A stretch of 64,000 nt of DNA from NCBI GenBank assembly GCA_944324905.1, contig CALUYB010000004.1, positions 62,001 to 126,000 of the forward strand, in the 5' to 3' direction. The position numbers and the translations under genes were made by a program. The notes beneath the pieces are model-generated. The model was not told where the DNA came from, made no database searches, and worked only from the letters and a program-made list of their open reading frames with translations. Below, piece by piece: positions 10,579 through 50,741 of the stretch (positions within the stretch are counted from its first letter, which is position 1; every line of letters starts with the position of its first letter). Source of the DNA: Candidatus Gastranaerophilales bacterium (lineage in GTDB: Bacteria; Cyanobacteriota; Vampirovibrionia; Gastranaerophilales; Gastranaerophilaceae).

Positions 10579-10619
10579 TTTTTATTATTTCCTCATTATT
10601 TTTTAAATTTACTTATAAA

Positions 10620-12332
10620 CTATGCAAGAATTGATTTTCTAACAACTTCGTTAAATACGATTCTGCCCGGAGTTGTTTCAATTCTCTTGCCTTCATCGTC
10701 TCTAACTACAATTTTGTCATGAAGCTTAACAATTCCAGATTCAAGAGCTGAAATTGCATCCATGTAATCATGGAAATAACCCTTAACAGGTGCATTTTCG
10801 TCTTTTAGGATAGTTAAATAATAAATACCTAATACCATATCTTGAGACGGTGTGATAATCGGTTTACCTGTTGCAGGAGCTAAAATGTTATTTGTAGCAA
10901 GCATTAACATTCTTGCTTCCGCTTGAGCTTCAATTGACAATGGTACGTGTACTGCCATTTGGTCGCCGTCGAAGTCAGCGTTAAACGCTGTACATACAAG
11001 CGGGTGAAGCTGAATAGCACGACCTTCTACAAGGATTGGTTCAAACGCTTGAATACCTAGTCTGTGCAAGGTAGGAGCACGGTTTAACATAACAGGGTGT
11101 CCGTCAACCACTTCTTCTAATATATCCCAAACAATAGGTTCAGAGCGTTCGATTTTCTTTTTAGCAGATTTAATGTTTTGAACTAAACCACGCTCAATTA
11201 ATTTATTAACAACAAAAGGTTTAAACAATTCAATTGCCATTTCTTTAGGCAAACCGCATTGGTTTAAGCTTAACTGAGGACCAACAACGATAACTGAACG
11301 GCCTGAGTAGTCAACACGTTTACCCAATAAGTTTTGTCTGAAACGACCTTGTTTACCTTCGATAATGTTTGATAAAGATTTAAGAGGTCTTGAATTAGGC
11401 CCAACTACAGTTCTACCGCGTCTGCCGTTATCAATTAGGGCATCAACCGCTTCTTGCAACATACGTTTTTCGTTACGTACAATAATTTCTGGAGCGCCCA
11501 TTTCAAGAAGTCTTAAAAGCCTGTTGTTACGGTTAATAACACGTCTGTACAAGTCGTTTAAGTCTGATGTTGCAAAACGTCCGCCGTCTAATTGCACCAT
11601 AGGACGCAAATCCGGTGGAGTAATAGGAAGAACATCCATAATAAACCAAGTAGGTTCAGTTCCTGATTCAATTAAAGATTCAACAAGTCTTAATCTTTTA
11701 ATTAATTTTGCTCTTTTTTGAACAGAACCACCTGCAGCGTCTAAGTCGCCTCTAATTTCATTTGCAAGTTCTTCAAGTTTTATTTCAGCCAAAAGGTCTT
11801 TTATAACCTCCGCACCAATACCAACTTTTAGTGTAGAGTCTTCATTTTCAAGAATATAATCTTCGTATTCTTCTTCAGTTAACAATTGGAATTTTTTAAA
11901 CGGGCTTTCACCACCATCAACTACAACATAGTTATTAAAATAAATAACTTGTTCCAAGTCTTTAAGTGTCATATCTAAAAGCAAACCAAGGTAGGAAGGA
12001 ATGCCTTTTAAAAACCAAATGTGTGACACAGGAGCAGCAAGCTTAATGTGTCCCATGCGGTGACGACGCACTTTAGAATCTGTAACTTCTACACCGCAGC
12101 GTTCGCAAATAATACCTTTGTGGCGAACTCTTTTGTATTTACCGCAATAGCATTCCCAGTCTTTTGAAGGTCCAAAGATTCTTTCGCAAAACAGACCATC
12201 ACGCTCCGGTTTTAAAGTACGATAGTTAATTGTTTCAGGCTTTGTAACCTCGCCGTATGACCATTTCAATATGCGCTCGGGAGAGGCTATTGAAATTCTT
12301 ATATAATCAAAATAATCAATACTAGTAGACAA
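10620..12332 (-). CDS. rpoC1: RNA polymerase gamma subunit (RpoC1), split cyanobacterial form
   Basis: 570 residues forming the N-terminal part of beta'. The zinc ribbon is [20 protein letters not shown] near residue 70, the clamp and rudder regions follow, and the catalytic magnesium site [14 protein letters not shown] has its three Asp at 453, 455 and 457. The protein ends soon after the active site ([10 protein letters not shown]), where uninterrupted beta' proteins would continue. This is the split seen in Cyanobacteria, plastids and Melainabacteria. It is 34 bases downstream of rpoB and 41 upstream of rpoC2. The start follows AAGGAGAATAAAAGTTGTC with ATG at 12330-12332. Confidence 0.97.
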
Positions 12333-16563: not shown

Positions 16564-19500
16564 TTAACCTGCAATGTGATATCTTTTCATAATATCAAGT
16601 TGTTTTTGACTATCATTCATAAGGGGCTTGTAGAAAGTTGTAACATTGTCGTTTAATACTATGCTTTTTCCGTCAGCGCGCCTTAATTCACCGTCTACAA
16701 CAACATATTTTACAGGTTTTCCGTTAGAGTCTGTTTCATCAACAAATTTAGCTTTTGATTTATCATATACTTTTCGATGAAGTTCGGCATTATTGCCTTT
16801 TGCATCTTTAATTTTATATTCAATTCCATTTTTATCGGCAATTTTAACAGATGGTACAACAACTGATTTAGGTTTTGACAACTCATAAGGAGAGCTTTCT
16901 TCTATTCCCATGTTAGATATCACTTGTATAACATTTGAACCTTTTTTGTCGTATTTTAGCATTGCAAGAAGGTTTTTGGAATCCTTTTGCGGCAATATAA
17001 CAGGCGTACCTTCTGACATAGCAGACATACCATATTCTTTGTATAGTGAGCACGATGCATTTAACCTGTCATTATATTCTTTAATTTTTGGTATAAATTC
17101 ACTTGAAGAAGGGTCGACCCATTCGTGCCTTACAAGGTTTCTGTTTTGTTGAGTAATATTTTTTGTAAGGTACTCATAACCTGTAGAACCCATATCAAAA
17201 CCTGCAAAGAAGAAAGGAGTACCCGGCATTGCACAGGTAAAGTCTGTCATTTTACTCAACTTTTGCATTGCCGGCTCAAGAACTGTTTCTAAAACTTTTT
17301 TAGAAAGTTCTTTTTCTTCATTTTTATCCAACCAGTCAATATTTTCTTTATTTGCAATATATCTGGCTTGTTTGAGAATATCTCTTGTTGAAACATCAAA
17401 AGAAGTTTGACCAAAAGCTTCAGCTCTAAAGAAATCAACTTCTTCTTTGCCCAAAAATTTATCTTGAGCTAAATCGCTTATGGCTTTATTTATAATATCA
17501 AGCGTTTGCTTATCATCCTTCAAGATAGAAGTAAAAGCATTTTTATACATTTCGCCAATTATCATAGCTTTTGAACTTAAATTGTCATAGCTTGAGGTCG
17601 GATCGTTAGGATTTTTACCTATTACTACTTGAGCAGCTCTTTTTGCAGTTTGTACATCATCTTGTGTTATTTGTGAATTGTGAGTATTTATACCAAACCT
17701 TGACAAGTAAGCGCCCATATCAACTGCAAGACAAGAAAGCCCAAGAGGTTTATCGTGGTTATCCCAGAATTTGTGGGTAAAAAGAACACTCAACGCAGGG
17801 CCTGATTGAATGAATTTTTCCAAACCATCTCTTACAGAATTTAAATCGGCAAAGTAATGTGTTTTGTTACCCGATTCAAAGCTTTTTGAGAAGAATTGAC
17901 TTAGCATATTAAAGAATAGTGAATACTGCGAACCTGTTGTAGCGCCTGTTTTTTCATCTATCATACGCTCTGCTATGTCAGGGTTAATGTATTTGCCCCA
18001 ATCCATTTCTTTGATTTCTTTAACTCTTGCTTCGATTTGTTCGTTTGTTGCATTAGGCCCTAATTCATTTCTAGCCTCATAATAATATGCAGGATTGTCG
18101 TTAAAATAAGACCACAAATCTGTCAACTCTAATATCACATAAGCCGAAGGGTTGACATCTCGCGCATTTTTAATAAATGTCCCCCAAAATTCTATCATAT
18201 CATCAATAGAATCTTCCATTCTTCTCAAACCATTGGCATTTGCATTTAAATCTGCAATATCTTTTGCAGCATCAAAACGCCAGTTTAAACCTGCGCGAGC
18301 TTGTTTAATAAATTCTTTTGCAAATTGAATACCCGCATAAGACATTTTATTAATACTTGTATCCTTAAGTAAGCTTGCAAATTCTTTTTCTTTTTCTTGA
18401 GTAAGTTTTTTATTTTCTAAATTAAATATAATATTTCTATATAAATCTTTTGCGTCAGTATTTGTGTCACCTGAAGTGTAAACGCCGGCCTCAGCCAGAG
18501 AAGCTTTTTTAAGAGAATCTGAATTTACAATCGCATCGTTTTCAGAATCAAAAGTAATAATTTCATTAGGATAAATTGCTTTTGTTACTACATAGCTTAA
18601 AATATTTGGCATTAAAAGTTCAAGAACCGCTTCACCGTATGGAGTAAGTTTTGCAAATTTTGGATTACCATATACATTTTGCTTATTAAGTGTTTCTGTA
18701 CTCTTGTCTTCTTTATTTTCATCTAAAGATGCTTTACCTTCTTCGCTTGTTAAAACATCGAATGAATCCGGTAAAAATTCGATAATTTTTTCACCCGATT
18801 CGTCTTGCATTTTAGCCAAAGTACCTATTATAAAATTAGCCAAAAGTTCTGTAGTTTGGGGTGTTTTCATGTAATTATTAAATACCGGTGTATTTAGAAC
18901 AACTTGAAGTTGAGGTGATAAATCTAAACCACCATATCTAAAATTAGTATTTTTAATTATATCTTGAATTGCATCTTTAGCATTCACATTTGTCAAATTC
19001 TTGTCAAATTCAATACTTTTAGCATCTTCATACATTTCCTGAAGTTTTTCAGGTGTTACATCATTTTTATATGCAATTTCAGCTATATTTTTCCTACCTT
19101 CAGGGTTATTTTTTGCATACTCTAATGCGATATTTTCAACATAAGCATCATGAGCAAACTTTGTCCAACGCAAACCGGTATCATACAAATATTGCCTTGC
19201 ATCATAGTATCCTTGGACATTTTCAGGTCTTGCATTAGGATTTGAAAGGTTTAATTTAACAAGATCAACACTGCCTGCCCAATAATCAACACCGCCAGCT
19301 CTGCCCTTTTCAACTATATCATAGTTTTCAAAGGAGAAAAATGTGTGAATATTGTCTATAATTCTTGAGTGTTTATCGCCAAATTCTTTTGCAAGTTCTT
19401 TATGCTTATCTGTAAGCATTTTATTTGTGTAACCGCTAAATCTGTCCCTTACACTTTTATCTGAATAATCCAATTCAAAGAAATACGGCTGAACTGAATC

Positions 19501-20655
19501 TTCATGAAGTGTAATATCGTAGTGATCCGCAGGGTTAGGAATATCGTATCTTTCAATTAAATTTTTTGTATCATTTTGCTGTTCTTTGCTTGCAAGTCTG
19601 TCATCAAAGAACTGAATATAACTTGGCTTATTAGAGTCATAACCCTTAACACCTCTCGGGTTTATAATTTTAAAACCTATATGATCCCATGCGTTTGCAT
19701 GTTGTGGATTTTCACTTGGTATATAATCAGGGAATACGCCAACTTTAATTCTGTCACCGCTTTTTATTTTAAACCAGTTGTAATATGGAGATTTTTTACC
19801 ATTTTTCAACACATCTTGGAAAAAGGGGCTTTGTAAACTATGCGATGTAAAAGCACCATCAGCAATGTAGCCCTTGCCTTCTCTAAATAATTCGGTAAGA
19901 ACTTTTTTAAATTTTGCTTGAGATGGAACCCTTAAAGTGTTTTCACTCCAATATTTATGTGAAGATTTTGTATCTGCGCCGATATAGGGATTTGTCATAA
20001 CATAACGATAAGGAGCAAGTTTTTTATCTTTCTTGTATAAAATACCATCTATATCGCCACCTGCTTTATTAAAGTGGATTCTATTATATTTATTTCTATC
20101 TATACCATTACTAGTATAAGAATCGTAAAAAACATGATAAGCTGAACCTGCTTTTGGTGTTACACCCATTCTGTTTGAAATGACAGTAAATTCACCAAAT
20201 TCATCGTCTTTAAATTTGCTACCTGGGTCATTGTTAATATAAGCTTTTGTTTTTATCTCACCGAAGACATTTTTTTTGTTTTCAGGATCAAGATTTTTAT
20301 ATGCTTGTTTTGCATCTTCTTTATCAACAAGTCTGAATCTGTAACCCATGTACTCACTAAACTTAGGATCGCTTATTACAGTATTTCTAGGATAATCGGT
20401 TGAATTTTTTAATTTAAAATCATGGTAAGAATTATTTATTGTAATTGGATTACAAAAATCTTTATCAATTTTAAAACCGCCATTGCCATCTTCAACTACA
20501 GGGCAAACTTCAAGCAAAATATCGTATTTTTCTCTGTCAAAAGGTGGAGCGTAAAACTTGTAAACATCATCAGGGGTGCGTTCTAAGCCTTTAAATGATA
20601 TTTTTTTAATGTTACTTACACTTTCTTCTTTTAGATTGATTGCTGAAATTTTCAC
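16564..20655 (-). CDS. Very large GH13-type alpha-glucan hydrolase with N-terminal F-x-G signature
   Basis: 1363 residues, about twice the normal alpha-amylase length. The GH13 catalytic regions are clear: region II LNWRFDAAKDI (nucleophile D795), region III YVILELTDLW (acid/base E843) and region IV FWDNHDKPLG (D968), followed by a C-terminal beta domain after GTPFFFAGFDMGS. About 790 residues precede region II; a loop such as RFGEMY is missing there and the block contains unexplained helical sequence (about 440-770). No signal peptide; ISFKG sits at residues 19-23. It starts at GTG 20655 after AAGGGTAAATATT and has its own GCAA-N18-TTTATA element, 74 bases behind the other GH13 gene. Substrate is probably an alpha-glucan such as glycogen; not provable here. 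Confidence 0.85.
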   Translation of the reverse strand: MKISAINLKEESVSNIKKISFKGLERTPDDVYKFYAPPFDREKYDILLEVCPVVEDGNGGFKIDKDFCNPITINNSYHDFKLKNSTDYPRNTVISDPKFSEYMGYRFRLVDKEDAKQAYKNLDPENKKNVFGEIKTKAYINNDPGSKFKDDEFGEFTVISNRMGVTPKAGSAYHVFYDSYTSNGIDRNKYNRIHFNKAGGDIDGILYKKDKKLAPYRYVMTNPYIGADTKSSHKYWSENTLRVPSQAKFKKVLTELFREGKGYIADGAFTSHSLQSPFFQDVLKNGKKSPYYNWFKIKSGDRIKVGVFPDYIPSENPQHANAWDHIGFKIINPRGVKGYDSNKPSYIQFFDDRLASKEQQNDTKNLIERYDIPNPADHYDITLHEDSVQPYFFELDYSDKSVRDRFSGYTNKMLTDKHKELAKEFGDKHSRIIDNIHTFFSFENYDIVEKGRAGGVDYWAGSVDLVKLNLSNPNARPENVQGYYDARQYLYDTGLRWTKFAHDAYVENIALEYAKNNPEGRKNIAEIAYKNDVTPEKLQEMYEDAKSIEFDKNLTNVNAKDAIQDIIKNTNFRYGGLDLSPQLQVVLNTPVFNNYMKTPQTTELLANFIIGTLAKMQDESGEKIIEFLPDSFDVLTSEEGKASLDENKEDKSTETLNKQNVYGNPKFAKLTPYGEAVLELLMPNILSYVVTKAIYPNEIITFDSENDAIVNSDSLKKASLAEAGVYTSGDTNTDAKDLYRNIIFNLENKKLTQEKEKEFASLLKDTSINKMSYAGIQFAKEFIKQARAGLNWRFDAAKDIADLNANANGLRRMEDSIDDMIEFWGTFIKNARDVNPSAYVILELTDLWSYFNDNPAYYYEARNELGPNATNEQIEARVKEIKEMDWGKYINPDIAERMIDEKTGATTGSQYSLFFNMLSQFFSKSFESGNKTHYFADLNSVRDGLEKFIQSGPALSVLFTHKFWDNHDKPLGLSCLAVDMGAYLSRFGINTHNSQITQDDVQTAKRAAQVVIGKNPNDPTSSYDNLSSKAMIIGEMYKNAFTSILKDDKQTLDIINKAISDLAQDKFLGKEEVDFFRAEAFGQTSFDVSTRDILKQARYIANKENIDWLDKNEEKELSKKVLETVLEPAMQKLSKMTDFTCAMPGTPFFFAGFDMGSTGYEYLTKNITQQNRNLVRHEWVDPSSSEFIPKIKEYNDRLNASCSLYKEYGMSAMSEGTPVILPQKDSKNLLAMLKYDKKGSNVIQVISNMGIEESSPYELSKPKSVVVPSVKIADKNGIEYKIKDAKGNNAELHRKVYDKSKAKFVDETDSNGKPVKYVVVDGELRRADGKSIVLNDNVTTFYKPLMNDSQKQLDIMKRYHIAG

Positions 20656-20729: not shown

Positions 20730-22571
20730 CTATTTTTTACAGATGTTATCAGTGTACGCTGCCGATTGTCCTAAATTTTCTTCGGATTTATCTCGAGGTT
20801 TTAAATAGTTCTCAAAATTTTGCTTCATTACATTTTCTGGTTTTGAATAGTATTCAATTTCGGGCGTATTAATTTCAAATACATGTGCCCTTAGTGGCCC
20901 TAAATCAACTGTTAAAGTATTTGGCGACTTTTGGAAATAGCTTGGTTGAGCGTAAGAAGGAACAAGATTTTTAAGTTCTTGATCTACCTTAAATCCCGGT
21001 ATTTGTATTTTTGCGCTTCTTCTTAAATTTGCATTCCTGTTGGCAACAACCAAAAGTGTTTTACCGTCTTTGTGTCTTGCATAAGCAATTACTTCAGGAT
21101 TATTGGTTTCAAGTTTAATTAATGAACCATACTGATTTATATCCTTGTATTTATTTCTCATGCTATGTGTTTGTTTTATTAAGTCTTGAATTTCGGGAAA
21201 ATCACCACCTGGTCTTCTTGAGTTGTTAAATATATCGAGTCTGCCGGTATGAACCGTACATTCATTGTTGTCTGTTTGTGAATTTGCCACTTTAGCATGG
21301 TCATATGGGTATAAATAATAATCGCCCGTTTGTACACCGTCTATGTAGTATGGATTAACCATAGGGAGCGTATTTTGCAGAACAGTTGTAAACATAACCC
21401 AAGGTGCACCGCCTTGATACATAGGACTTTGATCATCATGAGTTGTCATAGAACCAATTAGAGACTTAGGTTCGCTCATTCTATTAGACATATCAATATT
21501 TTCTTTCATATACTTAAATATGTCATCAGCTTTTGTCCATTGGCTCAGGATGTGGAATTGACCATAATATGAGTTAAATCCGCCTCTCAATTGATCTTCA
21601 GGTCTATCATATGGCATATTTAGCTGTGGTGAGGCATCTTCATGGGTGTAAGACTCTGCCAACCAACCAAATTGAGAATCAAGAGTATGAGAATAAGGAA
21701 TTAATACATTCCAGAACTCAATCGGTTTAGCACGGGAAACATCGGCCCTTATACCATCAATGCCAAGTTCAACGCAAGCATCAACGTATTTTTTATGCAT
21801 ATCAACAAGTTTGGGGTTCAATATTCTCTTGCCTTCATCATCCCAAACTCTGAACATTCTAATATCTTGCCAACCTTGTGGAGTTTTGTCTTGACCGTCT
21901 TTTTCTTTTGCCATTAGTTCAGGATGTCTTTTTGCAAAGTCAAGGCTTGCACAAGACGGCAAGTCTAACATAACTGAAATGCCGCGTTTATGACATTCAT
22001 CAATAAATATTTTAAAGTGATCCCAAGCAGTACCAGGGGTATTAGGGTCTTTTAAATTAGGGTCAACTGCAAGTTTGCCATCATCTTCTATAAATTTATC
22101 AGGCGCATAAAGTGAACCTGCAATACCCATAGCCAAAGTTTTACCTGTCGGATGAATGGGTAAAATATGCAAGGTATTTATACCCATATCTTTAATTTCA
22201 TCAAGTCTGTCTATGGCATTTATAAAATTACCAGATATTTCACCTTCTTGAATAAGCCCGTTACCATCAAGGTCCTTAGCGTTCATTGTTCTTGGAACAA
22301 CACCCAAAATTATTGCTTCGTTATTTCTTAGCATATCCCTAAAATGGTTATTCCATTGAACATTTTGAACGTTAGCATTATTGTTTATAGGTTGAATTTT
22401 TTGAGTTGGTAAAATTTGACTTGTTTGCTTAATAATATATTTGCTAACCATAGGGTTGTATGGCAGCTCTTGTTGTGTTTGGGGTTGCTGTTGTGTTTGT
22501 TCCTGAGCCTTTTTAGGAGCTGTATTTTGAGGATAAATAATATATTTTTGTGCTACGTTACTTATTTGCAT
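20730..22571 (-). CDS. GH13 alpha-amylase family enzyme
   Basis: 613 residues with a complete GH13 barrel: MGINTLHILPIHPTGK (region I neighbourhood), ISVMLDLPSCAS, region II GIDGIRADVSRA (nucleophile D277), region III WLAESYTHED (acid/base E306) and region IV MTTHDDQSP (D379). A C-terminal beta domain follows with KTLLVVANRNANLRRSAKIQ. The first 65 residues are a Gln/Pro-rich linker (QEQTQQQPQTQQ) without signal peptide or F-x-G signature. It may act on maltodextrin or glycogen in the cytoplasm, and the exact specificity is open. The start overlaps the stop of the upstream membrane-protein gene by 14 bases, so the pair is translationally coupled. Confidence 0.9.
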   Translation of the reverse strand: MQISNVAQKYIIYPQNTAPKKAQEQTQQQPQTQQELPYNPMVSKYIIKQTSQILPTQKIQPINNNANVQNVQWNNHFRDMLRNNEAIILGVVPRTMNAKDLDGNGLIQEGEISGNFINAIDRLDEIKDMGINTLHILPIHPTGKTLAMGIAGSLYAPDKFIEDDGKLAVDPNLKDPNTPGTAWDHFKIFIDECHKRGISVMLDLPSCASLDFAKRHPELMAKEKDGQDKTPQGWQDIRMFRVWDDEGKRILNPKLVDMHKKYVDACVELGIDGIRADVSRAKPIEFWNVLIPYSHTLDSQFGWLAESYTHEDASPQLNMPYDRPEDQLRGGFNSYYGQFHILSQWTKADDIFKYMKENIDMSNRMSEPKSLIGSMTTHDDQSPMYQGGAPWVMFTTVLQNTLPMVNPYYIDGVQTGDYYLYPYDHAKVANSQTDNNECTVHTGRLDIFNNSRRPGGDFPEIQDLIKQTHSMRNKYKDINQYGSLIKLETNNPEVIAYARHKDGKTLLVVANRNANLRRSAKIQIPGFKVDQELKNLVPSYAQPSYFQKSPNTLTVDLGPLRAHVFEINTPEIEYYSKPENVMKQNFENYLKPRDKSEENLGQSAAYTDNICKK

Positions 22572-25026
22572 TTACACCTCCGTTATCTTTTTTTTGTTTG
22601 TAGAGATGTTCATTTCTTGCCTTTCCAAAGAATAGCTGAGTAATCAATGTAGCTCCAATCGCAACGCCTGTTAAAGTACCAAAGATTTTAAACCAGTGTC
22701 TATCATTATAAATTTTACTTGCGGTTTCCATAAGTAAATCAGAACCTGCTTTACCAAGCATTGAGTACTGAGTTTTTTGCAGCGCACCTGTTGCTGCATC
22801 AGGAATTTCATGGCCGCGTCTGGCAAAATCTACAGTTTGGGCGTATATATTATAGAAATTTTCTCTTGTTGCCTTAAGTCTTGCAAGTAATGCAGGAGCA
22901 CAGCTTTCTGTTGTGTCCTTAGCAAGACTACCATAAGGTCTTGCATTTTCTCCTATCATATCTGTTTCTTTAAAGAGTAATTTTACAATATTTACAGCTT
23001 CGTCACCGTTTTTATCTAAATAAAATTTATTTGAAAGGTCATTCATTGAAGAATCATAAATAATATTGCGGCAAATTTTAATTACATAATCACTAAGTTC
23101 ATCTTCACCTGTTAGGTATTTCCAATATGCCTTTAGCTCACCTGTTTGCAATCTTTTTTCAAAGTCAGCTTCAAGCAGATATCTGTGACCTGTAGCTCTT
23201 ATGCCTGCGCCTTTTTCTTCAACAAATAAGTTTATGGTTTTTCCAAATAAAGATTCACGTTTTTTGTTATTTGCAACAAGTTCGCCTTTTAAGCCTGCAA
23301 TTGGAGAATCATCAGGGATATTTTTAATAAATCTATTGAAGTCTTCTGAAATTTTCAATTTTATTTGTTGCAATAATTTATCAATTGTACTTGCTTCGTA
23401 TTTGGATTGTTTTTCTGTTAAATCTGAAATAAATATTTTATAATACTCGTCATCTGCAGCAATTTTAGATAGATGTTTTACCAAAATTTCTCTTGAAGAT
23501 TGTGCAGATTGTCTTGCAACTTTTAGTTCTTTTGTTGGAATATGAGCAGCTTTTACAAGTTCCTGGGTAGATCTTAAATGAATGCCTGTGTAAATTGATT
23601 CATATTTTTGTCCTACCAAACTATTTATAAAATCAGCATAAACACTGGTACGAGCGCTCATTGGTCTTACTTGAGTTTCATAAATATCCAATAAATCCTT
23701 GTAGAATTGTTTAAGGGTTTCAGGGCTTACATCTTGAGCTTTGATACATTGTTTATAGATATCTTTTAATCTTTTTAATTCATCTGGATTTTGTACATTA
23801 CCAGCTATTGTATCAAATAAGTTTTCGAGTTCTTTAGCACCAATTAAGCCCTTGCTTTCTTTTTGGTTTTTAATTTTTATCAATTCTTTTAACACTTTTG
23901 AAGTTAAATCTTGCGCACCTGAGTTACCTTGTAAGTCACTAACACCGCCTAAATTTCTTTTTAGCACAGGAATAACTTCATCGATTTTTAAATTACCGTT
24001 TGTTGCATCTTGATTTTTCATTAAAAGATACTTTTGATTAATTCGAGTTTTTATATCGGGCGCAAAACCTGGAAGCTCAGCTATTAAATTAGCATCATCT
24101 AATTCTTTTGCGTTAATCATTACTTTAAACGGATCAAAAAGTGATGAAATTTCATTTAGGAATTTTTCATCCGGCGCCGTTGTTCTGTTTTCAAGAATTT
24201 GCTTAACTTGTTTTGAGTCAATTGAGTTAAAACTTTTATCTTTAAGTTTCTTTTTTACAAGATTTTCAGGGTTTTTAATGCCATTTAAAGCTTTATTATA
24301 TTGTGAATTCACAATATATTTTGTAACCCCTCTTTCAGATAAATTACAAATCATGGAAGTTAAAAGAGGGCTAAAACCCGCAGTCAACATCCAAAGGGTG
24401 TTACCTTGCAGAGCAACCGTTCTCATTTTTTCTTTTGTAAGCTCTTTATAATCGGGTAATTTTTTATCTACGCCCATTTTATCTGCAATTTTATCAATTT
24501 GCTCATCGGAATATAAATCAGGAATAAATTGGTTATCAAGGAATAATCTTTTTTTACGACCTTGTGCGTCAATGTATTGCTGACGAATATCAAAACCGTA
24601 GCGCAGTTTTAGAGGTTCTGAAATAAATAATCTGGGCCAAGCTGCCATTGATGCAAAAAATGCGCCTGCACCAATAAATTCCATTAAACCTTTTGTACCT
24701 GTACCGCGTCTTGTAAATAAGTAAGAAGCAATGCCTAAGCTGCCCAACTTCATGCCTAAATCGTTAAATCTACCAAGTTGATTATCATTAGATTTGCCTG
24801 TAGCAAGAGCTTTACCGAGTTCTACAACATCTTTCCCTGTATCAGCAGTTGCAATAATAAAGCTTGAGACAGGATTACGGCTTTTTAAAAGATAAGCCCT
24901 GTGCTGTTGTGGCGCAATAGAGTTTGCATTCAAAAGAAAAGCTCTGTATATGTCTTGATTAGCAATTTTTCCTATTAATTGCTGTTTGTTTTGTTGATTT
25001 TGAATAGGAGTGCTTATTTTATTCAT
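22558..25026 (-). CDS. Large membrane-associated protein of unknown function, coupled to GH13 genes
   Basis: 822 residues, not recognised. Hydrophobic segments occur at about 100-115 and 125-145 (LMEFIGAGAFFASMAAWPRLF), near 220 (TLWMLTAGFSPLLTSMICNL) and at the C-terminus (IFGTLTGVAIGATLITQLFFG, with a short basic tail). Between them lies a region of about 500 residues that is helical and highly charged. No nucleotide-binding or catalytic motif is visible. It begins one base inside the stop of the upstream gene (TAATG) and overlaps the downstream GH13 gene by 14 bases. The tight coupling suggests it helps anchor or organise the hydrolases; that is inference. Confidence 0.75.
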   Translation of the reverse strand: MNKISTPIQNQQNKQQLIGKIANQDIYRAFLLNANSIAPQQHRAYLLKSRNPVSSFIIATADTGKDVVELGKALATGKSNDNQLGRFNDLGMKLGSLGIASYLFTRRGTGTKGLMEFIGAGAFFASMAAWPRLFISEPLKLRYGFDIRQQYIDAQGRKKRLFLDNQFIPDLYSDEQIDKIADKMGVDKKLPDYKELTKEKMRTVALQGNTLWMLTAGFSPLLTSMICNLSERGVTKYIVNSQYNKALNGIKNPENLVKKKLKDKSFNSIDSKQVKQILENRTTAPDEKFLNEISSLFDPFKVMINAKELDDANLIAELPGFAPDIKTRINQKYLLMKNQDATNGNLKIDEVIPVLKRNLGGVSDLQGNSGAQDLTSKVLKELIKIKNQKESKGLIGAKELENLFDTIAGNVQNPDELKRLKDIYKQCIKAQDVSPETLKQFYKDLLDIYETQVRPMSARTSVYADFINSLVGQKYESIYTGIHLRSTQELVKAAHIPTKELKVARQSAQSSREILVKHLSKIAADDEYYKIFISDLTEKQSKYEASTIDKLLQQIKLKISEDFNRFIKNIPDDSPIAGLKGELVANNKKRESLFGKTINLFVEEKGAGIRATGHRYLLEADFEKRLQTGELKAYWKYLTGEDELSDYVIKICRNIIYDSSMNDLSNKFYLDKNGDEAVNIVKLLFKETDMIGENARPYGSLAKDTTESCAPALLARLKATRENFYNIYAQTVDFARRGHEIPDAATGALQKTQYSMLGKAGSDLLMETASKIYNDRHWFKIFGTLTGVAIGATLITQLFFGKARNEHLYKQKKDNGGVNANK

Positions 25027-26060
25027 TATAGCACCTCGTATTCTTTGTTAATATCAATTTGTGTGTCAGGTTGATTATTTGCAATTTTAAATCCGCGTGT
25101 AGCATTATATATACCTAAAATCGTAGAAGCAGCAGCCCCAAAAATAAGCGTTCTACCTACTATTTTTGAAGCAGTAGTAAATTTTTTATTGTTTCCGTTG
25201 TATAAATCCAAAAAGCTGTCTTTTAAAGTAGTAGCAAAATTCCTACCAAAACCTGTAAGTCTTTGGCTCATGGTACCTGAAATTGGCATTTTAATTTTTC
25301 TTTCAAAAGGTTCTTGAGCAGCAAGTGCAACACCTAAAGCTGCCCATATAAAGGAGCTTATTGACCTTGCGGAACTAAGTTTTGTAATAACTTCTCTTAC
25401 TTTTTCTTGAACTGTTTGCTCAGGACAATTTAGAGGATCTTTAAAGCCCATTTTTCTAGCTATTTTGTCCCACCAAAGGTTTCTGTTTCCTTTCTTTTCA
25501 CCCATTTTATTTAATAGGTCAAAACGAGGGAAATCAACACTTTCAAACACTCTATGGTATTCAATTCTTGTTAAAGCCTTATCACCTGTATTTTCAGGAA
25601 GCTCTTTGACAAATTTTTTATAAGGCATTTCAGGGTCTATACCGGTTTTCAACTGGACGCCCTTATTTAAGAATTTTGCACCGAGCCATTTGCCTAGGGC
25701 GTAAAAAACAACACCAAAAGCCATTTTTCTACCAGGGGCAGCAGCAAACGCCCTATCTGGCATTTTAAAACCTTTATTTGCAGCATTAAACAAAGCTATT
25801 AGCGTGGCAGAACCAACAATATTTGGTATCAAGCCTAAAGATAAAAATTCATAGAAATTAGAGTTTCTTGAACCCTTCATACCCTTTGGCGCGTAGACAA
25901 AAACATCATTTACAAGCTTGCTCAAAGTTATTCTGGCGCCGGTTAATGGAGTTTTTTTAATAATTGTATCAGAAGTATTTGAAAGCTCCTTCTCCGGTTT
26001 ATTTTGAACGTAGTATGCGTTCTTTGGTATATTCTCTGTTTTTACCTGTCCTGTTTGCAC
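25026..26060 (-). CDS. Membrane protein of unknown function, first gene of the GH13 operon
   Basis: 344 residues. A polar N-terminus of about 55 residues is followed by hydrophobic segments at about 88-108 (FLSLGLIPNIVGSATLIALF), 125-140 (MAFGVVFYALGKWLGA), 230-250 (ISSFIWAALGVALAA) and 300-320 (TLIFGAAASTILGIY). Cytoplasmic-looking charged loops lie between. The block LKTGID...KK loosely resembles LRYGFD...KK in the next gene, so the two may be distant relatives. The start is GTG at 26060 behind GGAGTGTTATTAACAAG. Function unknown. It leads an overlapping operon with the 822-residue protein and a GH13 enzyme. Confidence 0.72.
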   Translation of the reverse strand: MQTGQVKTENIPKNAYYVQNKPEKELSNTSDTIIKKTPLTGARITLSKLVNDVFVYAPKGMKGSRNSNFYEFLSLGLIPNIVGSATLIALFNAANKGFKMPDRAFAAAPGRKMAFGVVFYALGKWLGAKFLNKGVQLKTGIDPEMPYKKFVKELPENTGDKALTRIEYHRVFESVDFPRFDLLNKMGEKKGNRNLWWDKIARKMGFKDPLNCPEQTVQEKVREVITKLSSARSISSFIWAALGVALAAQEPFERKIKMPISGTMSQRLTGFGRNFATTLKDSFLDLYNGNNKKFTTASKIVGRTLIFGAAASTILGIYNATRGFKIANNQPDTQIDINKEYEVL

Positions 26061-26232: not shown

Positions 26233-28584
26233 ATGGAAATATCTGATTTTCAATTTAGTAATGAAATTATAAGTAAAATTTATAATTTTTACAACTCGAC
26301 AGATGAGCTATTGCTTTTGTGCGGTTTTTCTGGTTGTGCTAAAAGTGAAATTTTAAATAAAACTTTAGAAAATCAAGATGAAAACACTCTAATCTTTAGG
26401 CACTTATGTTTTGAAAACACAACAATAGATGACTTTTTGCTAAATTTTTACGATTCATTTAGGAAGTATTCTCTTGAAAAAAAAGTCAGCCTAAAAAAAA
26501 GCATGGGCGAAAGTTTTAAAAATAAAGTAAGTTTTTACTTTAAAAACATGGATAAAAAATGCATTATTGCAGTCGATAATTTTGAACTTGTAGAAAATAA
26601 TCTTGAAATTTTAAACTTTTTATCTCACATTGCAAGTTTTGAAAACACAAAAGTAGTACTTATTTCAAGGGAAAATAACATAGATTTTTTCATAAACGAC
26701 AATCTGCCATGCCGGATTATTGAAATTGAACCTGACACAAAAGAAGGTTTTAGAGAAAAAATTAAAAACGAAGAAATCGAAATAAACGATGAAACTTTAG
26801 ATAAACTATATGAACTAACTCAAGGTCACAGACTTTATTTAAGGATGGTTTTAAGGTATTCAAAAATCACAGGTTTAAAAATTTCAGAACTTTTAGCTGA
26901 ATTTGAAAAAAAAGAAAATAATTTCGAGGATTTTATAATTTTAAAATTAATTTCGCTAGTACCCAGCGTATATTTTGGTTTTATAAAAAATTTAAGCAGT
27001 CTAAAACACTCTGTAAGCGTTGATTTTATAAAATACTACAATCTTGGTGACATTAAACAAATTGAATACCTTGAGAGAAATTATTTAATCTCAAAATATG
27101 ATAATGATATTATTTTGAGAAATTATTTTAAACAATATTTTATAAGCACACTTTCCTTGCAAGAAAAATATGAAATATTTTCACGTCTTGTTGAAATTTA
27201 TGAAGAAGAACTCTCAAAAAGCCCACGCGATAGGCTTTTAAGACTTTCAAGAGAAAGCATCAGAAAACAAATTGAGGTTGTGAGGAAAAATATTCCTGCT
27301 CTTGGTAAACAAACAAGTGTGTCAAAAAGTAATTTTTCATACATTTCATTATCTCAAGAGGGCTCAAACCCTTGGTTTGACAAAAAAGAAATGGATAGAA
27401 AACAAAAATATCTTGATAAAAAAAGAGAACTGCAAAATAAAAAACTTACCCCAAAAAGAAGCACTTTAAGCGAAGAAGACGCGCTTATGCTTAAAGAATA
27501 CCGAAGAAGAAAATATGAAGTTGAGCAAATTGAAAAAATAGAAAACGAAGAATTTAATTTCTTAGAAGAATTTAAAAGGGCAGATGAGCTTGAACAAGAC
27601 TACCAGTATGCTCAGGCAAATGAAATTTTGTCACAGTTAAAGAGCAAAACCGATGACACTCAAACAAAAATAGAAATTCTTGAACACCTTGCGCATAACA
27701 GTGAAAAATTAAATAATTTTGAGCATGCCCTTGATTATTATACTCAAGTAAGCTCCTTACACCTTTTGAAAAAAGATTATGAAAAATATTATAAAACCAT
27801 ACTTGAGGTTGCTAATTTGTATAAAAATTTATACAGATTTTCAAGCGCAAAAGAACAGTATTTAAAAATTGCAAATTGCGAACAAGAAATAAATAATTCA
27901 ATAAAAACGCTGGCTTACCTGGGTTTAGGGGATGTTTTTGAAAGTGAAAATTCAATAAATCAAGCGCTTGAAAATTACAATTTCGCACTTGACTTTGCAG
28001 ATGAAAAAGACACAAATACACTGTGCGAAATTTATTTTAAAATAGCAATTTTATATGATGATATGCAAGATTTTAAAAACGCACAGGAATTTTATTTAAA
28101 GAACATAAACACAAGCTCTAATCCTGATACAAACAGGTGGATTTCACAAAGCTACGTTAATTTAGGGTTAATTTATTCTTACGAAAATAACATTGATGAA
28201 GCTAAAAACTACATAGAGCTTGCGCTTAAAACCGATAGGGAAAACAAAAACCTCTCAGGCATTTACTTTGCAGCGCGCGAGCTTTCAAAAATATATGAAA
28301 CTGAAAATCTGGAACTTGCAATTGATTACCTAAAAGAAGCACTTGAGTGCGCAAAGAAAATGCATGACGAATTTAAAGAAGCTTTTGCTTATCTTGAATT
28401 AGGTGATTTATATTATAATTTTAATCAGGATGAAATGGCACTTATTAACTTTTTTGAAGCTAAAAAAGCCCTTGGGGCAAACATTTTAGAAGAAAATGAA
28501 CAGATAATAAATCAGAGAATAAATGACATGAAAATAAAAATGCTGCCTTTAGAATTTCAAAGAATAGAGGAAAATTATGTTTAG
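26233..28584 (+). CDS. STAND-type ATPase with TPR repeats
   Basis: 783 residues. An N-terminal P-loop ATPase domain has Walker A GFSGCAKS (31-38) and Walker B IIAVDN (111-116), then VVLISREN, in the style of NB-ARC/STAND signalling ATPases. A charged linker (about 380-440) leads into a C-terminal array of tetratricopeptide-like repeats (about 455-760; for example ALDYYTQVSSL, ALENYNFALDFADE, AKNYIELALKTD). The last Lys-Thr/Ser of Walker A is K-S, so ATP binding is plausible. Such proteins are molecular switches or scaffolds; the output domain is not obvious. The gene overlaps rsmG by eight bases and is predicted to be leaderless. Confidence 0.85.
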   Translation: MEISDFQFSNEIISKIYNFYNSTDELLLLCGFSGCAKSEILNKTLENQDENTLIFRHLCFENTTIDDFLLNFYDSFRKYSLEKKVSLKKSMGESFKNKVSFYFKNMDKKCIIAVDNFELVENNLEILNFLSHIASFENTKVVLISRENNIDFFINDNLPCRIIEIEPDTKEGFREKIKNEEIEINDETLDKLYELTQGHRLYLRMVLRYSKITGLKISELLAEFEKKENNFEDFIILKLISLVPSVYFGFIKNLSSLKHSVSVDFIKYYNLGDIKQIEYLERNYLISKYDNDIILRNYFKQYFISTLSLQEKYEIFSRLVEIYEEELSKSPRDRLLRLSRESIRKQIEVVRKNIPALGKQTSVSKSNFSYISLSQEGSNPWFDKKEMDRKQKYLDKKRELQNKKLTPKRSTLSEEDALMLKEYRRRKYEVEQIEKIENEEFNFLEEFKRADELEQDYQYAQANEILSQLKSKTDDTQTKIEILEHLAHNSEKLNNFEHALDYYTQVSSLHLLKKDYEKYYKTILEVANLYKNLYRFSSAKEQYLKIANCEQEINNSIKTLAYLGLGDVFESENSINQALENYNFALDFADEKDTNTLCEIYFKIAILYDDMQDFKNAQEFYLKNINTSSNPDTNRWISQSYVNLGLIYSYENNIDEAKNYIELALKTDRENKNLSGIYFAARELSKIYETENLELAIDYLKEALECAKKMHDEFKEAFAYLELGDLYYNFNQDEMALINFFEAKKALGANILEENEQIINQRINDMKIKMLPLEFQRIEENYV

Positions 28585-29206
28585 CAAAGAAAATATTGAC
28601 CTCTTGGAAAAAGAATTTAATATAAAAATCAATCAAGACACAATTGAAAAATTAAACTTGTGGCATAAGCTTTTTATTGAATACAATTCACACACAAATC
28701 TTATGAGTGCAGGAGATATAAAAGTTATTTTTGAAAAGCATGTTTTTGATTCTCTTGCAATTTTAAAATGGAGTGAATTTGACCCTTATAAAAAACAAAA
28801 AATCCTTGATGTAGGCACAGGTGGCGGTTTTCCCTCTATCATTTTAGCACTTTTCTTTCCTGAACTGGAAATTGTCGCAAATGATTCAAGAATGAAAAAA
28901 ATAAATTTTATAATTGATACAAAAGCAGAACTGAATATCAAAAATTTAAAAATTTCTTATGCAAGAGTTGAAGACTTAGAACCTCTTAATTGCGACATTG
29001 TTGTTTCTCGTGCCGTTGGTACAATTAAAAATGTCCTAAGACTTTCAAAAAAACACATAAAAGAAAACGGATATTTTGTAATTTATAAGTCTAAAACTCT
29101 TGAAAATGAACTAAATGAAATTAAAGATATTAAAGCAGAAATAATCACATATAATTTGCCTCTAAAAGAAAATTTTGAAAGACATCTTGCAATTATTAAA
29201 ATGTAA
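28577..29206 (+). CDS. rsmG: 16S rRNA (guanine527-N7)-methyltransferase RsmG
   Basis: 209 residues, the normal family length. The SAM-binding motif ILDVGTGGGFPSIILALFFPE and the downstream VVSRAVGTIKNVLRL are characteristic of RsmG/GidB, which methylates N7 of G527 in 16S rRNA. It starts at ATG 28577 inside the end of the STAND gene behind AGAGGAAAATT, so it is translationally coupled. Its stop overlaps the stop end of the minus-strand gene at 29196 by 11 bases. Confidence 0.95.
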   Translation: MFSKENIDLLEKEFNIKINQDTIEKLNLWHKLFIEYNSHTNLMSAGDIKVIFEKHVFDSLAILKWSEFDPYKKQKILDVGTGGGFPSIILALFFPELEIVANDSRMKKINFIIDTKAELNIKNLKISYARVEDLEPLNCDIVVSRAVGTIKNVLRLSKKHIKENGYFVIYKSKTLENELNEIKDIKAEIITYNLPLKENFERHLAIIKM

Positions 29207-29555
29207 ACTCGTCTGCTTGTTTTTTCCTATCAATATAAGAACCGCTACCACACATCATAGCGTCCATATAGTCCTCAGCTTCTTGATATTCAACATACGC
29301 TTCTTTACATTTTTGAAGGAGTAAATAATCTTTTGCCGTTGCATACTCCTTACCGACTTCACTTGCATTTTCAAGAACACCATAGAGTCTTTCTTTCAAA
29401 GAAGGTTCGTTTCCGTCTTTTAAAATATAGTCAATTGTACCTGCTTCAACATCTTTAAGATCTTTAAGCACACTAATTGCGCTGTGCCTAAATTCTTTTC
29501 TTTCTTTTAAACCACTAAAAGGAACTGAATTATTTAAAACAGGTGATACACGCAT
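29196..29555 (-). CDS. Small protein with N-terminal F-x-G signature
   Basis: 119 residues starting MRVSPVLNNSVPFSGLKERKEF, so the signature PFSG lies at residues 12-15. The remainder is charged and helical with no membrane segment or known motif and ends ADEFTF. ATG 29555 is chosen because AAGGAGAGTAAA lies directly upstream; a longer reading frame to 29615 has no ribosome-binding site and contains a hydrophobic stretch translated from the promoter. An exact-spacing GCAA-N18-TTTTTA element lies 29 bases upstream. Function unknown. Confidence 0.7.
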   Translation of the reverse strand: MRVSPVLNNSVPFSGLKERKEFRHSAISVLKDLKDVEAGTIDYILKDGNEPSLKERLYGVLENASEVGKEYATAKDYLLLQKCKEAYVEYQEAEDYMDAMMCGSGSYIDRKKQADEFTF

Positions 29556-29584
29556 TTTACTCTCCTTTTTATCCCTAACAAATT

Positions 29585-29612
29585 TAAAAAATACGTAAAA
29601 AAAATTTTTTGC
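29585..29612 (-). promoter_or_regulatory. GCAA-N18-TTTTTA promoter-like element
   Basis: Minus strand: GGCAA, an 18-base A/T-run spacer, TTTTTA, ending 29 bases before the start at 29555. One mismatch in the second box. Confidence 0.5.
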
Positions 29613-29684
29613 CAATGGAACTAATAAAAAAGTATTACGTCAACTAATCCATAAAGATGATTAAAAAGTTGGAGGAATAGCATA

Positions 29685-33194: not shown

Positions 33195-35321
33195 CTATGC
33201 AACCTTTGGGTTTATTGTAATTGCATCAGCAAAATAATCAACAATACTTGGGTCAACTTTTTCAGCCCGTTCAGTTGCCATTACTTGACCTTTAATATCG
33301 TATTTACTTTCAACTTTATCTTTTAATTCAGAAGATGTTGCAACAAGACCTGTTTTTGTATTAACACACTTAAGAACATTAGCTCTTTCAAAGTCTTCTA
33401 ATTTAAAGTCACCAGAAGCAATCTGCATTGTAGTATGGTAAAGTTGGTTCAAACTACCACAATCTGCCCAAGGCTCATCTGTAGGAACAGCTAAAATCTT
33501 TTGGTCCCCTAAGATTTTTTTTGCAAACATAATTTTATCCATTGGAATACTTCCTTCATTGGCATTAACTATAGATGCAATCTCTTTTCTTGTCACAAAT
33601 AAGTCGTCATTTTGTGTGAGTGACATTAAGATGGGTGTTAAACATTTTGACCAGTCTCTTGGTTCTTTACCCTTACCTGCAGGAAAATATGGGGAAAGAA
33701 TTTCAAGCGCCTTAAATGCTTCCTTGCTTACTGCAAATTGGAATGTATTTGCCATACATTTACCTTCCTGCGAAATAAGATCTTTGGAAGGATTTTTTGG
33801 TTTTTCAACAAACTGCAGTATTTCATTGTTGGCACCAAGTTTCATTATACCAAAATCTTTTGCCAAGGATGGGTCAACTTCTTTTGCTATCATGACTATA
33901 GCAGCTTCACCAGAATCAATAAGTTCTTTTGCCTTAACCATAGCATTAGTAACTCTAGAAATTGGATCGTTTGGTAAAATTAATAAATTTTCTCTGCCGG
34001 CACGTTTCATTTTATTGTACATATCAATTGTAAAACCGCCATTACCTTTATTAACACCTGACTTGTTCAAATAAAATTTAACATTTTTACCTACACCAAA
34101 TACACCCTTTGAACAGTCGAGAAGACCTGCATTATGAAGCGTGATAAATGTAGTTTCCATAGGTGTTAAACCAGTAGGAGTTCTAAATACACCTTTAGTA
34201 GATTGTGCGCCATGTTCCAGTTTTCCCTTGTCTTTACCATGAAAGATACCATCAGAAGAAGCATTTGTGTACTCAGCACGAGAACCAAATCCACCAGCAA
34301 GCATGGCAATCTGTGTTTTATCTGCATCCGGAGCTGCAACAAATGTATCAAGAACTATTTTACCACTGTTAATTTTTTCTTCGAATTCGACAATACTTTG
34401 AATAATTTCAGGAACAAAACGTCCGTTTTCCATACCGATTACAATTTCAGTACCCTTTCCAATAGAAGGTTCAGGATGCCTTTCGCGCACTACTTGCGCT
34501 GGAGCTTCAAAAGGCACAAATACATTATCACCTTTCCTTGCATTAACAACTAATGTACCTTCAAGGGTGTCCTTTTTGCTTATTTTACCAGTGTCTGTCA
34601 TAAGAATAAATCTGTCTATAGGGTTGGGAGAAGAGTTATCTTCAACTACAGACATTAAATTGCCCTTGGTATTTAACACATAAACAAGCTCTTTCATAGG
34701 TTCTGGCATTTTTGAATCAGGCGTAAGCAGTACTCTTATATTTTGTTTTAGTGGTAAAGATATATCAGCACGCATTTTTCTCGCAGATTTTGGTTGACGA
34801 ACAGCCATTTCATACAAGAAATCTTCTCCTGCATTTTTAACTTGAGTTCTTGCTATAGTTTCATACGGCACAGTTTTTTCATACTTATAATATCTTCCTG
34901 TGGAACTAAATTGCTCTTCATATTGTTCTTTTCTATCTTCTTTTGAAACTACAATATTTGTTTTTACAGCATCTTCGTATTTAGGCAAAGAATCATGTAA
35001 TTCTTCGATAATTTCAGAAACATTTGCTCTGCTTCCTACCATTTCACCCTTTATGCCTGCAGCAGGATCATCACAAGTTACAACTTCCATGTTAAATTTA
35101 TCAAATACTTCGTTTAACGAAATGCCTCCTGCAAAATTAACACTGCTTGCCACTTTTATACCATTTAGTGCTTGATAAGCACTTGCTAATTTTGCAGCTG
35201 ATGTATTTTGTGCAGATGTAAAGCTAACAACACCACCTTGTTTTAAAGGCGAACTAACAACACTTTTCTCTCTTGATTGGTTTTTTGAACCAACAGATGC
35301 TAAATTAATCTTTTGAATCAT
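33195..35321 (-). CDS. Sugar-nucleotidyltransferase-like protein with an extra N-terminal domain
   Basis: 708 residues. The C-terminal half (about 340-700) is a nucleotidyltransferase of the ADP-glucose/GDP-mannose pyrophosphorylase type: QIAMLAGGFGSRAE at the G-x-G-x-x-R loop, LTPMETTFITLHNAGLL, LLILPNDPISR, IVMIAKEVDPS, FGIMKL and QFVEKPKNPS. The N-terminal half (about 70-330) has no family I recognise. The first 65 residues carry VVSFTSA and VNFAGG, versions of the shared N-terminal signature. With three GH13 and one GH57 enzymes nearby, a role in making ADP-glucose for glycogen is attractive, but the nucleotide is not readable from sequence. It starts after AAAGGAAGTCCCTG and is flanked upstream by a 22-base palindrome. 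Confidence 0.82.
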   Translation of the reverse strand: MIQKINLASVGSKNQSREKSVVSSPLKQGGVVSFTSAQNTSAAKLASAYQALNGIKVASSVNFAGGISLNEVFDKFNMEVVTCDDPAAGIKGEMVGSRANVSEIIEELHDSLPKYEDAVKTNIVVSKEDRKEQYEEQFSSTGRYYKYEKTVPYETIARTQVKNAGEDFLYEMAVRQPKSARKMRADISLPLKQNIRVLLTPDSKMPEPMKELVYVLNTKGNLMSVVEDNSSPNPIDRFILMTDTGKISKKDTLEGTLVVNARKGDNVFVPFEAPAQVVRERHPEPSIGKGTEIVIGMENGRFVPEIIQSIVEFEEKINSGKIVLDTFVAAPDADKTQIAMLAGGFGSRAEYTNASSDGIFHGKDKGKLEHGAQSTKGVFRTPTGLTPMETTFITLHNAGLLDCSKGVFGVGKNVKFYLNKSGVNKGNGGFTIDMYNKMKRAGRENLLILPNDPISRVTNAMVKAKELIDSGEAAIVMIAKEVDPSLAKDFGIMKLGANNEILQFVEKPKNPSKDLISQEGKCMANTFQFAVSKEAFKALEILSPYFPAGKGKEPRDWSKCLTPILMSLTQNDDLFVTRKEIASIVNANEGSIPMDKIMFAKKILGDQKILAVPTDEPWADCGSLNQLYHTTMQIASGDFKLEDFERANVLKCVNTKTGLVATSSELKDKVESKYDIKGQVMATERAEKVDPSIVDYFADAITINPKVA

Positions 35322-35429: not shown

Positions 35430-36095
35430 TTATTTAACAACACCCATATCAAGAACTTCTTTAAGTTTATTTTTTATCGTATTATGTATTTCTTCCTTGC
35501 TTTTTGTCCCGTCAAGTTCAATAAAACCGTATTCTTTTTCAAGTTTTTTATACTCGTCAAGACATCTTTTTTGATATATTTCAAAACTTTTGTAAATATC
35601 TGTTGAAAGACCTATATCGCGCCCTGATTCAAAATAATCCAACCCGCCTGACGCTATAAGTCTTTTTATTAATAAATCAGGAGGCATTTTTAAATAAAAT
35701 ACCAAATCAGGCTCAGGAGCAAATTCATAAAGCTTTTTAACCCAATTTATATCATGTCCTCGAACAGAATCGCGAACAAATGCAGTATAAACGTATCTGT
35801 CCAAAAGTACCACAAAACCTGATTTAAGCGCAGGAATTATTACATTTTCCAATCTGTCAGCGTAATCTGCCGCATATAAAAGCGAAAAAGTCGTAGTGTT
35901 AAGCAAATTTTTCTCTTTAGCTTCGTTAATAAGTCCTGAAATAAGTCTTGAGGTTTTCCACTCGGATACAACGCAACCATAGCTTAAGCCTTCAACAAAG
36001 CCTTTTAACATATTAACTTGAGTTGATTTACCCGCACCGTCGGTTCCTTCTATTACAACCAAAAGCCCGTCATAGCCGTGTTTTTTATATGCCAT
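35430..36095 (-). CDS. Thymidylate-kinase-like P-loop kinase, second tandem copy
   Basis: About 221 residues. Walker A is EGTDGAGKST and the thymidylate-kinase DR-Y motif appears as LLDRYVYTAFVRD; DYADRLENVIIPAL follows the fold. It is a paralog of the gene immediately upstream: both share EG-x-DG-x-GKST, FSLL-x-A-x-D-[YF]-ADRLE and DRYVYTAF. Neither has the canonical D-R-Y-x-x-S-x-x-A-Y-Q, so dTMP may not be the substrate for one or both. The start is ATG 36095 because AAAGAGG lies six bases upstream; it overlaps the upstream gene end by 11 bases. Confidence 0.82.
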   Translation of the reverse strand: MAYKKHGYDGLLVVIEGTDGAGKSTQVNMLKGFVEGLSYGCVVSEWKTSRLISGLINEAKEKNLLNTTTFSLLYAADYADRLENVIIPALKSGFVVLLDRYVYTAFVRDSVRGHDINWVKKLYEFAPEPDLVFYLKMPPDLLIKRLIASGGLDYFESGRDIGLSTDIYKSFEIYQKRCLDEYKKLEKEYGFIELDGTKSKEEIHNTIKNKLKEVLDMGVVK

Positions 36096-36780
36096 TTTCA
36101 TCCTCTTTAATTTCTATGCCGCGCTTTTTAAGCACTTCAGTTACCAATTTCCTAAAATACTGTTGTTTTTGATGAATTGTATCATTTGCATCAATCTGCA
36201 CAAGAGAATACTCGTCAATCATATTTTTATACTGCTCAATAACCCTGTTTTGAAAAATTACATAGCTTTTATAAGGGTTATTAGATAATTTTAAATCCAT
36301 GCCCGCTTCATAAAACTTTGGCTGGCGATTTGTGCAAATTCTATCAAGTGAAACTTTTGCGCTTACATCAAAATACACACTCAAGTCAGGTTTAATTGCA
36401 AAACCGTACATATTTCTAACCCACTTAGGATCAACCTCACGAGCAACATCGCGAGCAAAAGCAGTATATACGTATCTGTCTGCAAGTACTATAAAACCTG
36501 CTTTAAGAGCAGGAATGATTGTACGCTCAAGCCTGTCTGCAAAATCTACCGCATGTAAAAGCGAAAAAGTCCTGCCTGAGAGCAAATTTTTCTTTTTTGC
36601 ACGTTTTGTCGTTTGAGAAATAAGCTCGGAAGAATTCCATTGTGTTAAAATTACATCAAGATTTTTTGACTTTAGCCAACTGTATAGTAAGTCAAGCTGG
36701 GTACTTTTACCCGAACCGTCAATGCCTTCAACGCAAATCAACACACCTTGCAGTTTATGGTCTTTTGAAAATCTTAACAT
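36085..36780 (-). CDS. Thymidylate-kinase-like P-loop kinase, first tandem copy
   Basis: 231 residues. Walker A is EGIDGSGKST, then FSLLHAVDFADRLE, and the base-binding region LADRYVYTAFARD. It looks like bacterial thymidylate kinase in length and layout but its LID and DR-Y contexts are divergent. The likely reaction is phosphorylation of a (deoxy)nucleoside monophosphate, dTMP by family. The copy downstream overlaps it by 11 bases and is clearly homologous, so this is a tandem duplication. The start at 36780 is preceded by AAGGTAGAAA. Confidence 0.82.
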   Translation of the reverse strand: MLRFSKDHKLQGVLICVEGIDGSGKSTQLDLLYSWLKSKNLDVILTQWNSSELISQTTKRAKKKNLLSGRTFSLLHAVDFADRLERTIIPALKAGFIVLADRYVYTAFARDVAREVDPKWVRNMYGFAIKPDLSVYFDVSAKVSLDRICTNRQPKFYEAGMDLKLSNNPYKSYVIFQNRVIEQYKNMIDEYSLVQIDANDTIHQKQQYFRKLVTEVLKKRGIEIKEDENGI

Positions 36781-50615: not shown

Positions 50616-50640
50616 TTTTTTAATCCTAACCTTACACTTG

Positions 50641-50668
50641 TGGAAAGTCTGTAAATATATTTTTTTGC
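50641..50668 (-). promoter_or_regulatory. GCAA-N18-TTTCCA promoter-like element
   Basis: Minus strand: TAGCAA, an 18-base spacer ending ACAGAC, TTTCCA, ending 26 bases before the start at 50615. Two mismatches in the second box but exact spacing. Confidence 0.45.
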
Positions 50669-50741
50669 TATCATAGCTAAAAATTTTACAAAAATTTACA
50701 AACCTACCAACCAAGCATAAAGATTATACAACAAATTTCAT

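Follow-up and report, generated by a model that had tools for sequence, protein, structure and literature searches.

A core gene module of Gastranaerophilales places two unannotated helical protein families with GH13 enzymes

The genes D, C and B, with or without a fourth gene, A, form a core module of Gastranaerophilales that is far more conserved than one stretch of genome shows. We analyzed 64,000 nucleotides (the window) from contig 4 of a 1.66-Mb genome, in which D, C, B and A are four consecutive open reading frames (ORFs) on the minus strand (Table 1). A first-pass annotation of this DNA had described proteins of 344 and 822 residues and a GH13 enzyme whose genes overlap by 1 and 14 bases, followed on the same strand by a 1363-residue GH13 enzyme, and this layout was confirmed, with a gap of 74 bases between B and A. 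Our preferred reading, which we hold to be moderately probable, is an anchored intracellular complex for alpha-glucan processing, in which D and C are a membrane-associated scaffold with B, and probably A, held on it. No description of the D-C-B-A gene set was found in the open-access literature.

The lineage is non-photosynthetic, lies next to Cyanobacteria and is described as made up of obligate anaerobic fermenters (PMC3787301) that are able to convert starch or glycogen (PMC4040986). By eye, the RNA polymerase beta-prime subunit of the window appears to be encoded by two separate genes, for 570 and 1283 aa, which is also the cyanobacterial arrangement. Elsewhere in the window two adjacent, overlapping thymidylate-kinase-like genes encode 223 and 231 aa.

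Table 1. Positions of the module and of other features within the window.
Feature	Positions	Strand	Description and evidence
D	25026-26060	-	ORF, 344 aa, GTG start; hydrophobic helical, no known family; first gene of the unit
C	22558-25026	-	ORF, 822 aa; helical, no known family; N-terminal domain resembling D, followed by a long helical middle part and a hydrophobic helix at the C-terminal end
C residues 39-243	24298-24912	-	D-homologous; profile-profile comparison
C residues 781-799	22630-22686	-	C-terminal hydrophobic helix (hydropathy); the B domain comes after this region in the outgroup fusion
B	20730-22571	-	ORF, 613 aa; GH13 enzyme; PDB profile search, invariant D277/E306/D379, Pfam on 21 members
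B residues 41-54	22410-22451	-	MVSKYIIKQTSQIL, conserved motif of the N-terminal extension and putative docking peptide; found by motif search, with shuffles as controls; extension missing from the Sec-type paralogue
A	16564-20655	-	ORF, 1363 aa, GTG start; remote GH13, D795/E843/D968; PDB profile search, invariant residues
A residues 21-23	20587-20595	-	FKG, upstream of the enzyme domain; alignment of the A family
FxG-like proteins	1062-2567, 3811-4806, 5394-6626, 16564-20655, 29196-29615, 33195-35321, 49962-50714, 54011-54781, 57593-60178		FxG-like N-terminal motif
RNA polymerase beta-prime	6727-12332		Looks split into two genes
AAA/TPR protein	26233-28584		STAND-like; divergent from D
GlgC-like gene	33195-35321		708 aa; sugar nucleotidyltransferase
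Thymidylate-kinase-like genes	35430-36780		Two adjacent genes

Gene order was read in 36 relatives, over about 18 kb around C, and in 80 loci from named MAGs, over 20 kb around B; the two sets overlap for the genus of the window. D-C-B occurred in one order and on one strand in every locus with a long enough contig, across six families of Gastranaerophilales. D and C lay directly upstream of B, overlapping or nearly touching it, in every assessable locus, and the intergenic distances, mostly -32 to +30 bases, resemble those of translationally coupled genes. Incomplete loci (CBA, CB or a single B) were contig ends, except for L173 of genome G384. In 66 loci A came next in the same orientation; L060 and the outgroup locus L166 have it upstream and divergent, and many genera have it elsewhere in the genome. 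The association would be doubtful if the D and C families mostly occurred without GH13 neighbours in relatives; what we found was D-C-B intact wherever the contig reaches, and kept even where all other neighbours change. No SusC/D-type or dedicated sugar transporter was among the recurring neighbours of the loci, which thus do not qualify as Sus-type or classical polysaccharide loci, in agreement with the earlier remark that the transporter of such a locus is missing here.

Several observations concern the surroundings of the module. A STAND-like AAA/TPR protein gene, divergent from D and with RsmG behind it, is beside the operon in 31 of 89 loci; its product is a possible regulator, with no DNA-binding domain seen in it. 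Promoter-like sites did not exceed the level of shuffled sequence. Two records titled Fusobacterium sp. and Clostridiaceae bacterium (L138 and L145) carry the D-C-B operon at ordinary identity and are probably mislabelled Gastranaerophilales MAGs.

In genome G367, from another family of the same class, locus L166 encodes D (379 aa) and then a single 1030-aa ORF, residues 117-521 of which match the C profile and residues 523-1030 the B profile. The assembly is a single contig, the frame of the fusion is open throughout, and the B part has kept its catalytic triad (D, E, D). A adjoins the fusion on the opposite strand, near but not co-directional. That C and B are one chain in a sister lineage strongly indicates joint action of the two proteins where they are separate, and it suggests a dedicated scaffold on which the enzyme is kept in the cell.

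The distribution of the genes was compared across a sample of the phylum. Nearly every Gastranaerophilales genome sampled had C, and so did G367; the other genomes of the phylum lacked it, apart from a single marginal match (E 1e-3). Both C and A were looked for in 55 genomes: 39 had the two, 13 had neither and 3 were discordant (Fisher value 1e-9, with relatedness ignored). Of the discordant genomes, G018 has a completeness of 75% and G418 of 63%; G384, at 94%, carries A and neither C nor B1, the operon copy of B. A match in G032 at E 5e-4, to a helical stretch of C, was scored as absence of C. The joint absences of C and A were spread over several genera and families (g31, g156, g158, g159; f2, f3, f4), and A, though unlinked in many genera, was absent where C was absent. 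Nine genomes with only a second copy of B had neither C nor A. Four relatives were without C: G024 and G035 had no B of any kind at E 1e-10, and G030 and G032 had weak GH13 matches only. Together with the C-B fusion, the joint presence and absence of A, B and C supports the first-pass proposal that D and C are coupled to GH13 enzymes.

Other candidate links were rejected. The GlgC-like gene of the window had full-length matches in only 2 of 23 genera and was not retained as a fifth member. GlgA was strong in genomes without the module and below the family cut-off in the window genome, and phosphorylase-like genes occurred both with and without the module.

D and C are related to each other, as D aligned with residues 39-243 of C in a profile-profile comparison (probability 97.9, E 4e-13). 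Neither had a meaningful match in Pfam or NCBIfam; Pfam gave no family in C and one borderline match in 1 of 21 D members. Structure prediction, which had been proposed for both, returned helical AlphaFold2 models of moderate confidence (mean pLDDT 76.6 for D and 74.6 for C) and no convincing fold: with these models Foldseek found nothing at E <= 0.001, VIA-align Z stayed below 7, and there was no PDB match. Their earlier description as membrane proteins holds in part. Both have hydrophobic stretches at conserved positions, but the hydropathy is only marginal, with best 19-residue values of 1.84 (D) and 1.62 (C) compared with 2.8-3.0 for clear membrane proteins of the window and 1.93 for the soluble RpoB. 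Association of D and C with a membrane is probable. By the positive-inside rule, the charges flanking their last helices are symmetric and therefore do not permit the topology to be read.

The assignment of B to GH13 was upheld. The B family profile matched, in the PDB, AmyB of Thermotoga neapolitana (4gkl, E 7e-26, the best match), maltodextrin glycosyltransferase (1gju, E 6e-23) and GlgE (E 2.5e-15). PF00128 matched 17 of 21 B homologues at E <= 0.001, with B of the window itself below the curated cut-off (16.2 bits versus 22), and the catalytic D277 (nucleophile), E306 (acid/base) and D379 (stabilizer) expected of a GH13 enzyme were invariant in the 21 homologues. A was GH13 by profile only: the family profile found neopullulanases and cyclomaltodextrinases in the PDB at 1e-18. 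PF00128 matched 4 of 11 A homologues, and A of the window had no Pfam match. The catalytic D795, E843 and D968 were invariant in all 11 homologues, and with the profile match they bear out the placement of A in GH13.

Most genomes of family f1 carry two B-family genes. B1 is extended at its N-terminus by a median of 74 aa, and this extension contains a conserved 14-residue motif, exemplified by LLSKYIIKQSSQIL and LLSAYLNTLAMINT; the log-likelihood ratio of this motif was 703, compared with about 208 in shuffles, for input sequences that are related to one another. The second copy, B2 (about 515 aa), begins with a Sec-type signal peptide, judged by eye, in 14 of 14 copies inspected, including that of G384, and these copies keep the catalytic residues and have no N-terminal extension. 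B2-type genes also occur where the operon is missing (L173:8463-10010; L182-L195). Neither B of the operon nor A starts with a signal peptide, as read from their sequences and as the first-pass annotation had stated. These differences suggest that one GH13 copy is anchored intracellularly and another is exported by these bacteria. The B1 motif may be a docking peptide. A relationship between this motif and the N-termini of C was not accepted, as the match was weak (mean -4.2 versus -5.3 in shuffles) and the reverse test negative; the motif was not demonstrably shared with or complementary to C, and it was not detectable in the linker of the G367 fusion.

A second N-terminal feature was seen well beyond the module. 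An FxG-like motif (ISFKG, VPFSG, INFSG, VNFTSG) is found within the first 60 residues of many lineage-specific proteins, enzymes included, and housekeeping proteins do not have it. In the A family, F21 and G23 are invariant in the alignment. In G000 and G030 the strict form of the motif occurred approximately 7-12 times as often as expected among the first 60 residues; for the relaxed form the excess was only 1.5-2.3 times. Small samples from families f8 and f9 had no strict form. The GlgC-like sugar nucleotidyltransferase of the window and that found at the same place in another locus (L044:16506-18386) resemble each other over their N-terminal 75 aa, a stretch that includes two FxG repeats (41% identity), and their enzyme parts align weakly (26% over 167 aa); the N-terminus of this pair behaves as if it were a separate module. 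FxG N-termini were rejected as a signal that depends on D and C, as G030 lacks the module yet has such proteins. The motif is possibly a lineage-wide sorting or docking signal.

In the mechanism that we propose, the homologous helical proteins D and C would together make up a membrane-associated scaffold, and B would be retained on it in the cytoplasm by way of the short conserved motif of its N-terminal extension. In the sister lineage B would be held by covalent fusion to C instead. A would act on the same alpha-glucan as B and would probably also be held by the scaffold, and the anchored intracellular complex would be kept apart from the Sec-exported paralogue of B. We infer the cytoplasmic side because B1 and A have no signal peptide, although the same cells provide B2 with one; likewise inferred are the physical complex in the window species, the membrane insertion and the docking role of the motif. 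Glycogen, imported maltodextrin or lipid-linked glucan may be the substrate, and the reaction may be hydrolysis or transfer, with degradation or remodelling of the glucan as its outcome. The first-pass reading, in which a membrane pair anchors or organizes glucan degradation on the membrane or on a storage body, is supported in part. Counting against a scaffold are the marginal hydropathy and unreadable topology of D and C, the weakness of any match between the B1 motif and C, the presence of A without C or B1 in G384, the distribution of GlgA and phosphorylase independently of the module, and the orientation of A in G367. A bolder version, in which the complex is a dedicated subcellular glucan-processing body and D and C are the first members of a new scaffold family to which enzymes are brought by short peptides at their N-termini, appears unlikely to us.

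Two other functional readings were weighed, and we give little credence to either. D, C, A and B1 might be exported or displayed by a non-Sec route, with the signal in their N-terminal extensions (FxG-type), and starch from the diet would then be broken down by the complex beyond the inner membrane. Consistent with such a route would be the weak hydrophobicity of the helices, the disorder of the N-terminal extensions, the invariant F21 and G23 near the N-terminus of A, the life of these bacteria in guts, and the starch use predicted for the group (PMC3787301). The same cells, however, export a paralogue of B with a normal Sec-type signal peptide, and FxG-type N-termini are also carried by a likely nucleotidyltransferase and a helicase-like protein of the window, both of which need the cytoplasm. 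Alternatively, D and C might be a transport or channel pair for glucan or maltodextrin, with B and A processing the arriving cargo. In favour of this are two homologous hydrophobic proteins tightly coupled to glucan-active enzymes, in a unit with no other sugar transporter, but the hydrophobicity of D and C is far below that of the transporters of the window, and their models, of only moderate confidence, matched no transporter fold.

The arrangement could also be ordinary conserved synteny in a slowly rearranging lineage, with D and C unrelated to the GH13 enzymes, and RsmG and the AAA/TPR protein are likewise adjacent to the operon in the 31 of 89 loci noted above. D-C-B persists, however, where every other neighbour differs. 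The fusion of C to B and the joint absence of A and C, with A unlinked in many genera, largely refute this explanation, which we consider very improbable.

A membrane-associated scaffold for B, and probably for A, is the reading we retain. Two protein families without annotation, D and C, belong to a gene set found almost throughout a gut lineage that is abundant and mostly uncultured; gene fusion, operon order, and shared presence and absence tie them here to enzymes acting on alpha-glucan. For these bacteria D-C-B-A is a testable entry to glucan storage or use; in the window genome no GlgA-type glycogen synthase scored above the family cut-off.

Among characterized enzymes, the GH13_48 maltogenic amylases (T. 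neapolitana AmyB 4gkl; 3dhu) are the best profile match of B and have the same barrel and triad. Their signature is a Cys directly before the nucleophile and an NH ending region I (PMC11239784). B was rejected as a member, as Ala276 precedes D277 and region I reads DLPSCAS, so that both the Cys and the NH are absent; unlike these amylases, B also has an N-terminal extension and an operon with D and C. The next best matches, the GlgE maltosyltransferase (GH13_3) and the Thermotoga maltodextrin glycosyltransferase 1gju, have a similar xxKPxxFW around the nucleophile and similar surroundings of region I. B was not accepted as GlgE: it had no NCBIfam GlgE match, PF21702 was below cut-off, and K264 and N352, which we take to be the phosphate-pocket (maltose-1-phosphate) residues of GlgE, were at positions not conserved in the B alignment. 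The neopullulanase/cyclomaltodextrinase group (2wc7, 2z1k) gave the best PDB matches of A, which in comparison is more than twice as long and has large insertions, an N-terminal FxG-type motif and, in the window species, no Pfam match.

Beyond enzymes, the SLC3A ancillary proteins (rBAT/4F2hc) resemble the G367 fusion, with a GH13 domain after a hydrophobic helix and another membrane protein as partner. The SLC3A GH13 domains are extracellular ancillary parts of animal amino acid transporters, whereas no transporter was identified here and the catalytic residues of the GH13 proteins of G367 and the operon are intact. The proposed glucan-processing body would be unrelated to any known compartment, but its N-terminal recruiting peptides would follow the same logic as encapsulation peptides.
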